From Thermodesulfobacteriota bacterium (lineage in GTDB: Bacteria > Desulfobacterota > Desulfobacteria > Desulfobacterales > Desulfosudaceae): a DNA stretch of 64,000 nt. Where the stretch lies: the NCBI GenBank assembly GCA_040753795.1, contig JBFMDX010000008.1, positions 1-64,000 on the forward strand, given 5' to 3'. This document shows, in pieces, positions 3,825 through 34,471 of the stretch. The notes under the pieces were generated by a model that had not been told where the DNA came from, made no database searches, and saw nothing but the letters and a program-made list of their open reading frames with translations. How positions within the stretch are numbered: position 1 is the first letter of the stretch; each line of letters opens with the position of its first letter. The position numbers and the translations under genes are program-made.

Positions 3825-5329
3825 TTTTGCGGAGGCTTCCTTTTAAAGGCGGCAGGGCCGATATCCCTATTTTTCCCGGACATCACTTTTCCCAAAGAAT
3901 CCAAAACGCTCTCTTCTACCGGAAATATCGCCGCCAGTTTTCCTTCGTAAAACACGCCAATGCGATCGGCCATGGTCAGCATTTCATCCAGGTCGGACGA
4001 AGAGAAAACGACGGAGCCGCCCTTATCGCAGAAGGTTTGCAGCCTTGACCAGACCAGAGCGGCGGACTCCGGGTCCAGCCCCCGGGTGGGGTTGTCGAGC
4101 AGAAGAAGCGCCGTTTTTTCAGGGATCAGGGCCAGCAGCAGCCGCTGCTGGTTTCCTCCGGACAGGAACCGGGCGGGAGTGTCCGGCCGACCTTTGATCT
4201 GAAAATCAGCAATGGCCGCGGCGGCCCGGTTCAGTGCCGTGGTTGAGCGATTTGCAAAAGGAGGCGCCCCTTCGGCGACAAGGAAATGGTCGGCGATGGT
4301 CAGATCCGGAGCCAGGCCGTCATACAGCCGATCGGAGGGAATATAGCCGACGCCTTTTTGCCGCAGCGCATGGTAATCCCGGCCGGTGACATCCTCCCCG
4401 CGAAGGACGAATTTTCCGGCTTTGGCCGGCGTCAGGCCGGCGGACGCTTTCAGAAAGAGCTCCTGCCCGCTTCCATCCAGGCCGGCCAGCCCGATCACCT
4501 CTTTCTGTTTGACCGAAAAATCGGCAACGAAAAGCCCGGCCCGTCCGCCGGACGCCCGGATTCCGGAGGCGGAGAAGACAATCTCGCCTGTCTCCCGGAG
4601 CTTTCGCCGTTGTGGTGCCCGTCCTTCCCCGAACATCAGTTCCAGAAGCTGATCCTCTGAAAAAGGGCGATCCTGCGCTCCGATAACAGCGCCCTGCCGC
4701 AGGACCGTCACCTGGTCGCATAACTGCCGTATGTCGGAAAGTTTGTGGGATACCAGGACGACGCTGTTGCCCCGGCCGGATACAAATTTTTGCAGCGCCG
4801 CGATCAGGACGTCCTTCTGGTCTTCGGACAGTCCGGTGGTCGGTTCGTCCAGAATCAGCAGCCGGGTCCCCGCCGACAGCAGCCGGACCATGTCCGCCTG
4901 CTGTCTTTCCCCTACGGTAAGTAAAACCGTAGGATCATCGGGCCTTATAGAGAAGCCAAGATCACGGGCGGTTTTCAGGAATATCCGGGAGAAGGCTTTC
5001 CGGTTGAGCCGCAGGCCGGGTGTCCGTCCCAGCATGAAATTTTCCAGCGCGGAAAACGCCGGCACATCCAGAACATCCTGATGCAAAAGCCCGATGCCCC
5101 GGGCGGCCGCGTCCCGGGGCGATGAAAAGGAAACGGCTTTGCCGTCGATCCGGATATCGCCGCCGTCCTTACCGGTATATCCGGCCAGAATTCGCATTAA
5201 AGTAGTTTTACCGGCGCCGTTCTCACCCAGCAGACCGTGGATCCGGTTGGGCGCAATGGTCAGCGAGACGCCGTTGCTGGCCGGAACCGGCCCGAAATAT
5301 TTTCTGATGTGGCACAGTTCAACTTTCAT
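3821..5329 (-). CDS. double-domain ABC transporter ATPase for the BMP importer (YufO-like)
   Basis: About 502 residues holding two fused ABC domains, as in sugar and nucleoside importers of the RbsA/YufO type. The first domain has Walker A (GLLGENGAGKTT) and Walker B (LLILDEPTTGLS). The second has a degenerate Walker A region (GLAGLDGSGQELF), a signature SGGNQQRLLLAL and Walker B LLLLDNPTRGLDPE, the pattern typical of these half-active pairs. Start: the ATG at 5329 was preferred to a TTG at 5347 because the residues after it begin the family alignment. It lies 22 bases after the stop of the binding-protein gene and overlaps the next permease as ATGA. Substrate by family: nucleosides; the exact ligand is unknown. 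Confidence 0.92.
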   Translation of the reverse strand: MKVELCHIRKYFGPVPASNGVSLTIAPNRIHGLLGENGAGKTTLMRILAGYTGKDGGDIRIDGKAVSFSSPRDAAARGIGLLHQDVLDVPAFSALENFMLGRTPGLRLNRKAFSRIFLKTARDLGFSIRPDDPTVLLTVGERQQADMVRLLSAGTRLLILDEPTTGLSEDQKDVLIAALQKFVSGRGNSVVLVSHKLSDIRQLCDQVTVLRQGAVIGAQDRPFSEDQLLELMFGEGRAPQRRKLRETGEIVFSASGIRASGGRAGLFVADFSVKQKEVIGLAGLDGSGQELFLKASAGLTPAKAGKFVLRGEDVTGRDYHALRQKGVGYIPSDRLYDGLAPDLTIADHFLVAEGAPPFANRSTTALNRAAAAIADFQIKGRPDTPARFLSGGNQQRLLLALIPEKTALLLLDNPTRGLDPESAALVWSRLQTFCDKGGSVVFSSSDLDEMLTMADRIGVFYEGKLAAIFPVEESVLDSLGKVMSGKNRDIGPAAFKRKPPQK

Positions 5330-32113: not shown

Positions 32114-32956
32114 ATCGACATCATCACCACTCCGGAAGAAATGCAGCAACGCGCCGACCAACTGAGGCGCTCGGGGAAAACCATCGCTTTCGTACCCACC
32201 ATGGGCTGTCTTCATGACGGCCATATGTCCCTGCTCCGGCTGGCAAAAGAGCGCGGGGACCATACCGTGCTCAGCATCTTCGTCAACCCGACCCAGTTCG
32301 GACCGAACGAGGATTTTGCCAGCTACCCCCGGCAGTTTGAACAAGACGCCAGGGCCGCGGAAAACGAAGGAACCGACACCATTTTCGCGCCGGAAAAAGC
32401 AGGCCTCTACGAGAGCGGTTTTGAAACCTATGTTTCCCTGGAGCAACTGCCCAACCACCTCTGCGGCCTTTCCCGCCCCCACCATTTCCGGGGCGTGGCC
32501 ACGGTCGTTTCCAAGCTGTTTAACATCGTCAAGCCCCATGTAGCCATCTTCGGCCAGAAGGACTATCAACAACTGGCCATCATCCGGCGCATGACCATCG
32601 ACCTGAATTTCGACATCCGCATCATCGGCGCGCCCATCATCCGGGAAAAGGACGGACTGGCCATGAGTTCGCGCAACATCTACCTGACGGAAGCCCAGCG
32701 GCCGTCGGCCCTGTCGCTTTACCAGTCCCTGCTGCTGGCCGCGGGAATGATCCAGGAAGGGGAGACCGACGCCGCCCGCATCATCGAAGCGGTCCGCCGC
32801 CACATCGCCTCCTTTCCGGAAACCGAGATCGATTACGTGACCCTGTGTGATCCCGACCGGCTCACCGACGTTGACGACATCTCCGGCCCGGTCCTTCTGG
32901 CCCTGGCCGTGCGCGTGGGCGGCAAGACGCGGTTGATTGATAATATGGTTATTTAG
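32114..32956 (+). CDS. panC: pantoate--beta-alanine ligase with apparent ATC start
   Basis: About 280 residues. PanC joins pantoate and beta-alanine with ATP to give pantothenate. Visible: PTMGCLHDGHMSLL (HIGH-type motif), FGQKDYQQLAIIRRM, the GLAMSSRNIYL loop (KMSKS-like). Family members start right before the IITTPEEMQQ-type opening. Here that position is ATC, with a GGAGGAGGAGG just upstream, and no in-frame ATG lies nearby until 32141, which would cut into the first strand. TTG at 32036 and GTG at 32045 are in frame but lie within about 20 bases of the predicted transcript start with no ribosome site. ATC as start is therefore the best reading; a base change or sequencing error from ATG is the alternative. 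Confidence 0.9.
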   Translation: MDIITTPEEMQQRADQLRRSGKTIAFVPTMGCLHDGHMSLLRLAKERGDHTVLSIFVNPTQFGPNEDFASYPRQFEQDARAAENEGTDTIFAPEKAGLYESGFETYVSLEQLPNHLCGLSRPHHFRGVATVVSKLFNIVKPHVAIFGQKDYQQLAIIRRMTIDLNFDIRIIGAPIIREKDGLAMSSRNIYLTEAQRPSALSLYQSLLLAAGMIQEGETDAARIIEAVRRHIASFPETEIDYVTLCDPDRLTDVDDISGPVLLALAVRVGGKTRLIDNMVI

Positions 32957-32971
32957 GGGCAGGGGGGGACG

Positions 32972-33019
32972 AAGTGATTAAGTGGTTAAGTGGTTAAGTG
33001 ATTAAGTGGTTAAGTAATG
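32972..33019 (+). repeat. left array of 8-bp units AAGTGRTT
   Basis: Five consecutive 8-base units at 32972-33011 (AAGTGATT, AAGTGGTT, AAGTGGTT, AAGTGATT, AAGTGGTT) and a degenerate sixth. The same unit recurs in inverted orientation at 33699-33745, so the pair brackets about 730 bases holding an AT-rich gene and an attC-like site. Confidence 0.85.
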
Positions 33020-33037
33020 GAAGGCTTCGGCCTTTCA
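33018..33037 (+). terminator. stem-loop with TTCG loop after panC
   Basis: TGGAAGGC and GCCTTTCA pair as an 8-base stem (one G-T) around a TTCG tetraloop, a very stable RNA hairpin. No T-run follows, so it may be a processing or stability element rather than an intrinsic terminator. Confidence 0.35.
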
Positions 33038-33063
33038 GGGTTAAGGTGTTAAGGTTAGGGGGG
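33038..33063 (+). repeat. telomere-like GTTAAGG/TTAGGG tract
   Basis: A short run of GGGTTAAGG, TGTTAAGG and TTAGGGGGG with strong purine/T bias. Its reverse complement resembles the CCCTAACACC tract at 33634-33668, extending the inverted symmetry of this region beyond the 8-bp arrays. Confidence 0.45.
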
Positions 33064-33122
33064 AGGAGAAGGGTTCGAAGGGCCGAGGGGACCTTCAACC
33101 GTATTGCATCATAATTATAATG

Positions 33123-33615
33123 TTAAATGCCAATTCAATGAACTTATGAACCTCGAAGCCAAAAAATCTTTTCCAGTTTTTGCGACCATATCGAGTATAC
33201 CAGTGCTATTGGGGCTTATTTGGTTTGCATTAATTATGAGTGAATTGATTTTGGGGCCACCCGAAGGAGTTGAAGACGAAGGCGCACCATTTGTATATAT
33301 TTTTTGGCTTGCGGTACAGTTTTTACTGTCTATTACGGCAACACTATTGTTGAATCGCAGCAGTTCACGAAAAGAAAATTATAAAAAATTGCGAATAGCT
33401 TTATTGTCTTTTGGTTGGCTGCCTATTTTCGTATTTGTATTATTATTTTTGGTTGCGGTTGCAATTTAATAAAATAGCTCGTTTTTCTATTGACATTTAA
33501 CAAAGAAGCTCAAGTGGACCGCCAGGGCACTCGGGTTTTGATAAGTCGGGGGAAATGAACAAACTGAATCTTTACTCAAGTCGGTAGAAGCCCTGGCTGC
33601 CATTTGCTTCAGACG
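33123..33615 (+). mobile_element. probable single integron gene cassette (about 493 bp)
   Basis: The left edge is GTTAAAT at 33122-33128 (matches GTTRRRY, cut after G). The right end is an attC-like palindrome that starts with ATTTAAC (matches RYYYAAC), the exact complement of the left-edge motif, as expected when a circular cassette closes. Within are one small AT-rich gene and a short spacer before the attC, the normal cassette layout. No integrase gene is in the window, so this would be an isolated cassette inserted at a secondary site. Recognised from motif geometry, not from a database match. Confidence 0.6.
33146..33469 (+). CDS. small AT-rich membrane protein in a cassette-like segment
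   Basis: A 107-residue protein with three hydrophobic helices (about residues 8-30, 44-64 and 80-104) and short polar loops, ending VAVAI. No family recognised. The gene is far more AT-rich than its neighbours, a sign of transfer. ATG at 33146 follows a weak ribosome site; a TTG at 33104 would lie outside the proposed cassette and is less likely. The stop is 25 bases before the attC-like element, as in integron cassettes, where the gene is usually promoterless; no strong promoter is seen here. Function unknown. Confidence 0.6.
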   Translation: MNLEAKKSFPVFATISSIPVLLGLIWFALIMSELILGPPEGVEDEGAPFVYIFWLAVQFLLSITATLLLNRSSSRKENYKKLRIALLSFGWLPIFVFVLLFLVAVAI

Positions 33616-33621
33616 TTCACT
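33495..33621 (+). other. attC-like recombination site
   Basis: R'' box ATTTAAC at 33495-33501 and R' GTT at 33615-33617. The arms pair imperfectly: AAC with GTT, GAAGC with GCTTC, AAGTGG with CCATTT and an uninterrupted GCCAGGGC with GCCCTGGC, with unpaired bases between the blocks. Total about 120-127 bases, in the range of long attC sites such as those of vibrios. The right GTT is followed by CACT rather than RRRY, which fits an insertion at a secondary target. Confidence 0.6.
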
Positions 33622-33633
33622 CGACTCCTTGCT

Positions 33634-33668
33634 CCCCCTAACACCCTAACACTTTAAAACTTTAACAC
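33634..33668 (+). repeat. telomere-like CCCTAACACC tract
   Basis: Repeated units CCCTAACA, CCCTAACACTTTAA and CTTTAACACCC. It is the rough inverted counterpart of the 33038-33063 tract. It lies between the attC-like site and the right 8-bp array. Confidence 0.45.
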
Positions 33669-33698
33669 CCTTTGAATGGCTGAACCCTTCCGCTTCAT

Positions 33699-33745
33699 AA
33701 CCACTTAACCACTTAATCACTTAACACTTAACCACTTCATCACTT
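33699..33745 (-). repeat. right, inverted array of 8-bp units (AAYCACTT on plus)
   Basis: Six units on the plus strand, AACCACTT, AACCACTT, AATCACTT, AACACTT, AACCACTT and CATCACTT, the reverse complement of the AAGTGRTT units at 32972. The array runs into the last codons of the FecR-domain gene (stop at 33740). Confidence 0.85.
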
Positions 33746-34471
33746 CCCCCCCCCATCCCTTTCCCGGTTCCACTTGACCCATTCAGTCAGGTCCTCATCG
33801 TAGGAAAAGGCGAAAGGCGCGGCGGCGGAGCCGTCGGTATGGATGGCCATCTCCTGGCCCGGCTCCAGAATACGGGCAGAGTCCAGGGAATCGGCGGTCT
33901 GGTCGCTGTCGAGGGACGCTGAACCCGGTGCCGGTGAAGAGGTGCTTTTCACTTCCACGGCGCCGTCATATACCTTGATCACGGCCGCCTGGTCGTCGTT
34001 GACGTTCATGCGGAAAACAGCCCCCCGTCCGGAGACAACGGTCGTCCGGGTGGAAACATCAAAGCGGTCTTCAACGGAAGGGGACTTGGCAACCGAGGCC
34101 CACAGCTTGCCCATGATGATGCCGATGTCAACAAACCGGAGGCCGGTCGAAGGATCAAGGGACAGGGATGTGATCACGGCAACCGAACCGGCGTCAAGGC
34201 GGACCAGGCTGTCGTCCCCCAGGCGCAATTCTATTTTTGAACCATCGGCGACCCGTAACCGGTCTCCCTGTGCCAGGCGGTCGCCGGCCGCCAGGGCGCG
34301 GACCGGTTCCAGGCCAGGGGTTACGACAAAACAGCGCCCGACCAGGCAGGTGACTTCCGCTCCGACACCTTCATTTTCCCCATTTATCATTTCGACGCCG
34401 GCCGCGGCCGGGAGCGATGCCATCAGGACAAGCCCTACAAAAAAAAAGACGCGCACAACAGAAATAGACAC
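33740..34471 (-). CDS. FecR-domain protein
   Basis: A 243-residue exported protein with a signal peptide (cleavage near the LPAAAGVEM segment, about residue 24). The FecR-type beta domain spans about 40-190: RLAQGDRLRVADGSKIELRL, a DDSLVRLDAGS strand, then a VSGRGAVFRMN strand. FecR domains sit in the periplasm or on surfaces as sensor or scaffold modules; no anti-sigma helix is attached here. GTG start directly abuts the SpoIID gene stop (TAG then GTG). The 3' end overlaps the inverted 8-bp repeat array by six bases. FecR plus CHASE2 cyclase is a known neighbourhood in several proteobacteria and suggests extracytoplasmic signalling. Confidence 0.85.
   Translation of the reverse strand: MSISVVRVFFFVGLVLMASLPAAAGVEMINGENEGVGAEVTCLVGRCFVVTPGLEPVRALAAGDRLAQGDRLRVADGSKIELRLGDDSLVRLDAGSVAVITSLSLDPSTGLRFVDIGIIMGKLWASVAKSPSVEDRFDVSTRTTVVSGRGAVFRMNVNDDQAAVIKVYDGAVEVKSTSSPAPGSASLDSDQTADSLDSARILEPGQEMAIHTDGSAAAPFAFSYDEDLTEWVKWNRERDGGGK

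Follow-up and report, generated by a model that had tools for sequence, protein, structure and literature searches.

An integron gene cassette outside any array, most likely inserted at a secondary chromosomal site in a Desulfosudaceae-type bacterium

Integron integrases (IntI) reportedly drive the insertion of gene cassettes into chromosomes at attG sites, and in such insertions, as apparently at the locus described here, the cassette stands in the chromosome outside attI and attC and is joined at G^TT. For IntI1, recombination of the folded bottom strand of attC with a double-stranded target is established. According to passages in papers citing the attG work of Loot et al. (2024, Nat Microbiol 9:228), attG sites are unlike classical att sites, whereas the target at our locus resembles the core of resident attI sites over about 16 bp; furthermore, attG insertions were placed by IntI, while here a role of IntI is deduced from sequence and three IntIs are candidates. 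Single attC sites without an integrase nearby have a term and a category of their own, as SALIN or one-site CALIN of IntegronFinder (PMC12690207, PMC9024848). Like a SALIN, our locus has one attC-bearing cassette without an adjoining intI in the window, by which the whole 64-kb stretch of DNA analyzed is meant; it does not differ in kind, and in addition we traced the edges of the cassette, the core of its target and the integrases resident in the genome. Precise insertion of one complete cassette outside any att site is likewise known from aadB at a secondary site of the plasmid RSF1010 (Recchia and Hall 1995, as cited in a passage of PMC10127599), but cases of this type are class 1 resistance cassettes on plasmids, whereas the window harbors an environmental chromosomal cassette. 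A literature search for integrons of Desulfococcus oleovorans found no paper. Cassettes that stand singly off the array have been described before, as SALINs or attG insertions, and the present case is a further instance; less usual are the attI-like core of its target, its location at the apex of an inverted repeat, and the fact that singletons are scattered through both the host and an integrase-less relative.

The host is a Desulfosudaceae-type bacterium in which the cassette lies alone between panC, encoding pantoate--beta-alanine ligase (32141..32956, plus strand; TIGR00018 327 bits, cut-off 213), and a convergent gene for a FecR-domain-like protein (33740..34471, minus strand; matches only below curated cut-offs), the start codons of both neighbors being uncertain. 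The cassette comprises 493 bp (33123..33615, plus strand; TTAAAT ... CAGACG) and its body has a G+C content of 35% compared to 57% in the flanks. Its left edge is formed by the heptamer GTTAAAT (33122..33128, plus strand), the R' of the circular form, with the crossover between G33122 and T33123. As had been noticed in a preliminary description of this DNA, the exact reverse complement, ATTTAAC, is found at 33495-33501. In the 64 kb the heptamer occurs on both strands in just two copies, at 33122 (+) and 33495 (-), where shuffling expects 5.1, and both fall at the predicted box positions. Complementarity extends past the box, with 11/12 matches between TTAAATGCCAAT and the complement of ATTGACATTTAA. 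The right end had been placed at the GTT at 33615: G33615 indeed closes the cassette as its final base, but the TT that follows (33616-33617) is contributed by the target DNA. One ORF (33146..33469, plus strand; ATG at 33146, TAA at 33467-33469) runs toward attC, starting 23 nt past the left edge and ending 25 nt before attC, the latter distance as previously given. Such a unit, bounded by G^TT on either side and with a left heptamer complementary to R'', is what is expected of an integron cassette, which usually holds one ORF directed toward attC and little non-coding DNA, as found here. Most attCs of the host genome and of G002, a complete genome of the same family, likewise have the exact reverse complement of R'' 318-602 bp upstream, which marks the start of the cassette, and at C10 and G002:3148k such an edge falls where the attC before it ends, as in arrays. 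The window unit fits this pattern of paired edges with one intact ORF.

The attC site (33495..33617, plus strand) was delimited by a covariance model, family covariation and folding, and consists of R'' (33495-33501), L'' (about 33505-33509), an inner stem formed by 33521-33528 and 33590-33597, L' (about 33606-33610) and R', with its GTT at 33615-33617. The paired blocks pointed out earlier were recovered, with GAAGC at 33505 facing GCTTC at 33606 and GCCAGGGC at 33521 facing GCCCTGGC at 33590. Covariance model R1, built from an alignment of 16 other attC sites from which that of the window was left out, matched the window site over its full length with 111.4 bits (E 9.4e-26). This was its only match in the 64 kb at E up to 10; a very different type of attC might have escaped this search. 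The family alignment without the window site holds compensatory changes at 11/23 stem pairs, and the bottom strand of the circular-form attC folds as single-stranded DNA with -17.4 kcal/mol (z -2.5). At the DNA level, 12 further matches to the palindrome with up to 82% identity were detected in the host genome, and matches with up to 86% identity in G002. With a degenerate attC-core pattern, a single named record was retrieved, a Desulfobacterales MAG in which sites of this type stand in tandem. The four boxes together with the conserved imperfect stem identify the site as that of an integron cassette, and the attC model and the cassette edges jointly bear out the original proposal of such a cassette standing alone outside an array.

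The cassette gene encodes a protein of 107 aa with three hydrophobic segments, predicted to be membrane helices, and structure prediction from the single sequence likewise yielded three helices at low confidence (pLDDT 67), in agreement with the three-helix membrane protein proposed before. No relative was detected in the genome contigs or plasmids searched, and across 389 genomes of the order of the host no convincing relative was found, as no match fell below E 0.006. Looking for the 493-bp unit or its protein in other arrays, as had been suggested, gave a negative result, and the window cassette was not encountered in any array. In NCBIfam the protein weakly matches the toxin TsaT (18.9 bits against a cut-off of 80), a hit that was not used for an identification. 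Small membrane proteins are also present in other single cassettes (C3, G002:1652k), and the payload is taken as a putative cassette-borne membrane protein.

The absence of an integrase, as first described, holds at the locus itself, where tblastn detected no intI fragment within the surrounding 12 kb and no intI adjoins attI and cassettes as in a complete integron, but it does not hold for the genome, in which three integron integrases are encoded and attC sites form several arrays. The three intI genes exceed the TIGR02249 cut-off (434, 423 and 406 bits), contain no stops and are located at both ends of contig C11 and at the start of C33, with no other contig above the cut-off. All three IntIs carry catalytic-type motifs of tyrosine recombinases (GKGGKDR or GKGDKDR, HTLRHSFATH, LLGH, IYTHV) as well as the integron-specific stretch YPxA...W. 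Sites of attI were assigned by their position beside intI and by sequence; two predicted attI are readable, ...CACATAATAACATTG^TTCAAGTAAGC at the end of C11 and ...CACAATAATATTAATG^TTCAAGTAAGC on C33, with a probable third one at the start of C11. Several GGAAAATTTTCCAT-like palindromes, perhaps regulator sites, are situated there upstream of one intI (L015, 1-366). The arrays are interrupted by the assembly, with attC sites located close to the ends of contigs C10, C16, C20, C28 and C1, and the attC family of the window is also present in the arrays near the ends of C10, C16 and C1.

Joining of the flanks gives CATCATAATTATAATG^TTCACTCG as the pre-insertion sequence, the left half of which is attI-core-like (CATCATAATTATAATG, 33107..33122, plus strand) and is followed by TTCACT (33616..33621, plus strand) as right half. 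In its shorter form, CATAATTATAATG^TTCA, the reconstructed empty site agrees with both readable attI cores at 14/18 positions, a score that was reached by 0/1698 GTT sites of the window. A PWM of four attI cores placed the left flank within the top 0.1% of 5239 GTT sites; among AT-matched GTT sites its rank dropped to the top 3% (about 0.03). The attI-like signal is therefore in part AT-richness, and with AT content matched it appears moderate. In comparisons with the three attI regions, the left flank scored no better than shuffled sequence against two of them and was only weakly similar to the third (9/300 shuffles as good), and the right flank departs from the attI sequence after TTCA. Since the core matches attI without longer attI homology, the target looks like a secondary (attG-type) site and not like a relic integron. 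The edges and flanks fit precise joining at G^TT, and the reconstructed empty site is consistent with the secondary-site insertion already suggested. A TATAAT before the crossover was considered as a promoter, for which a simple scan gave no support.

The order of panC and the FecR-like gene is also kept in the sister genus G001, where the two genes (ending at 2070 and 2067) overlap by four bases and no insert is found; therefore, the family does not carry the segment invariably at this junction. The DNA of G001 has diverged too far to show a base-exact empty site, and the nearest genomes belong to other genera, one of them lacking synteny. G002 was rejected as an empty-site control, as panC and the FecR-like gene are about 5 kb apart there.

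These observations make it probable that a host-type cassette, excised as a circle, was inserted between panC and the FecR-like gene when IntI recombined its attC with a secondary site there. The source would be a cassette of the kind borne in the integron arrays of the host itself, and the circle would have been recombined by one of the resident IntIs, presumably with the folded bottom strand of attC acting on a double-stranded target, into a chromosomal G^TT preceded by the attI-like core; the membrane protein may be expressed and useful. This origin is supported by the completeness of the cassette, an attC of the host-array family, correct crossovers on both sides and three uninterrupted intI genes, and further by the junction without a cassette in the sister genus and the attI-like pre-insertion sequence. 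Because the lone complete cassette is found in a genome with three intact integrases elsewhere, natural insertion outside the array, of the kind already described, is its most likely origin.

Single cassettes are not confined to the window, as with one attC model at least five were found in the host genome and at least six in G002, in whose complete genome no IntI was detected above the cut-off. At C5:157000-166000 (L014, 4421-5084), a single cassette stands at an extended attI copy without intI, and this singleton (C5:161420) shows 76% identity over 188 nt to the attI region at the start of C11. At C3:282000-291000 (L012, 4257-4817), the left flank of a single cassette (C3:286691) is like the attI at the end of C11, again without intI. 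Judged by sequence, both singletons are apparently relic integrons. Directly downstream of each lies a toxin-antitoxin-like pair, an RHH-like protein with PemK on C5 (L014, 3797-4497) and HigB with an HTH protein on C3 (L012, 4857-5450). A three-attC array in G002 (G002:C1:511000-518000, L045, 1757-4100), preceded by a 338-nt match of 77% to the attI region of C33, reads as an integron that lost its intI. Another G002 cassette, ending near 4086 of G002:C1:3348000-3356000 (L121), encodes an M50-family metalloprotease-like membrane protein (PF02163, 41.7 bits). Two G002 cassette ends (L049 at 1652k, L048 at 3149k) adjoin the identical sequence GTTCGCCGAGCGYGCAGCGGACTTCGTCC, and two cassette ends on C2 (L114, C2:37996; L115, C2:50058) adjoin GTTGCAAAAAGYGTGGTTGTG; in both cases repeated targets or attI copies may be involved. 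One target motif common to all singleton left flanks was considered and cut back after closer comparison.

Other explanations for the window locus were weighed against insertion by IntI. The palindrome might be a chance or unrelated hairpin, for instance a terminator or a repeat, without any cassette, for which it could be argued that the attC consensus is generally weak by eye and that an Rfam scan of 32900-33800 gave no match; yet the score against a model made from other attC sites was judged refuting already, and together with the paired edges and the occurrence of this type of site in tandem arrays it leaves this explanation a negligible probability. It is also very unlikely, if somewhat less so, that the cassette arrived within a larger segment by homologous recombination or another mobile element and not via IntI. 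The idea draws on an imperfect inverted repeat of AAGTGGTT octamers between the convergent genes, whose arms of about 120 bp (left, 32962..33078, plus strand; right, 33621..33753, minus strand) could pass for the ends of an element, with the cassette at the apex and the target at the inner edge. Similar octamer arrays, however, occur without a cassette elsewhere in the host genome (C3:126034-126302, C15:79516) and in G012, panC and the FecR-like gene, both core genes, follow directly outside, and both crossover points are exactly those of IntI.

The remaining alternative, which we regard as improbable but as the most serious of the three, is that a complete integron once stood here and lost intI and all of its cassettes but this one, so that the attI-like flank would be a true relic attI. 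The C5 and C3 singletons of the same genome, which stand at extended attI copies, and the G002 array that retains its attI-region match without intI speak in its favor. At the window locus, however, no fragment of intI is found, the flanks show at most weak similarity to the attI regions beyond the core, as given above, and the left repeat arm, a type of sequence known elsewhere without cassettes, ends 44 bp upstream of the cassette. As the window site lacks the extended attI homology seen in the C5 and C3 singletons, insertion at a secondary site is preferred.

For the scattered singletons as a group, the flanks at C3, C5 and G002:1652k are not independent because of their extended homology with attI copies, which leaves five independent sites (the window, C1:7105 and G002:1767k, 3279k and 3352k), of which G002:3279k misfits the motif. 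Several flanks from other genomes may be true attI and were therefore not counted as evidence. Five sites with one misfit are too few to claim attI-like targeting of scattered singletons.

The window offers a clean natural off-array cassette in a genome that still carries the presumed machinery, with both crossovers and the target core readable. Several such sites, in the host and in its integrase-less relative, would allow comparison with attG sites mapped in the laboratory, and would let one ask whether the IntIs of this clade favor attI-like cores. We tentatively consider, as a possibility that is rather less probable than its opposite, that the integrons of this family seed the chromosome with single intact cassettes at many loci, some of them inserted by IntI at attI-like cores that resemble a -10 element. 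If true, the integron would be a disperser of genes whose products outlive the integrase.
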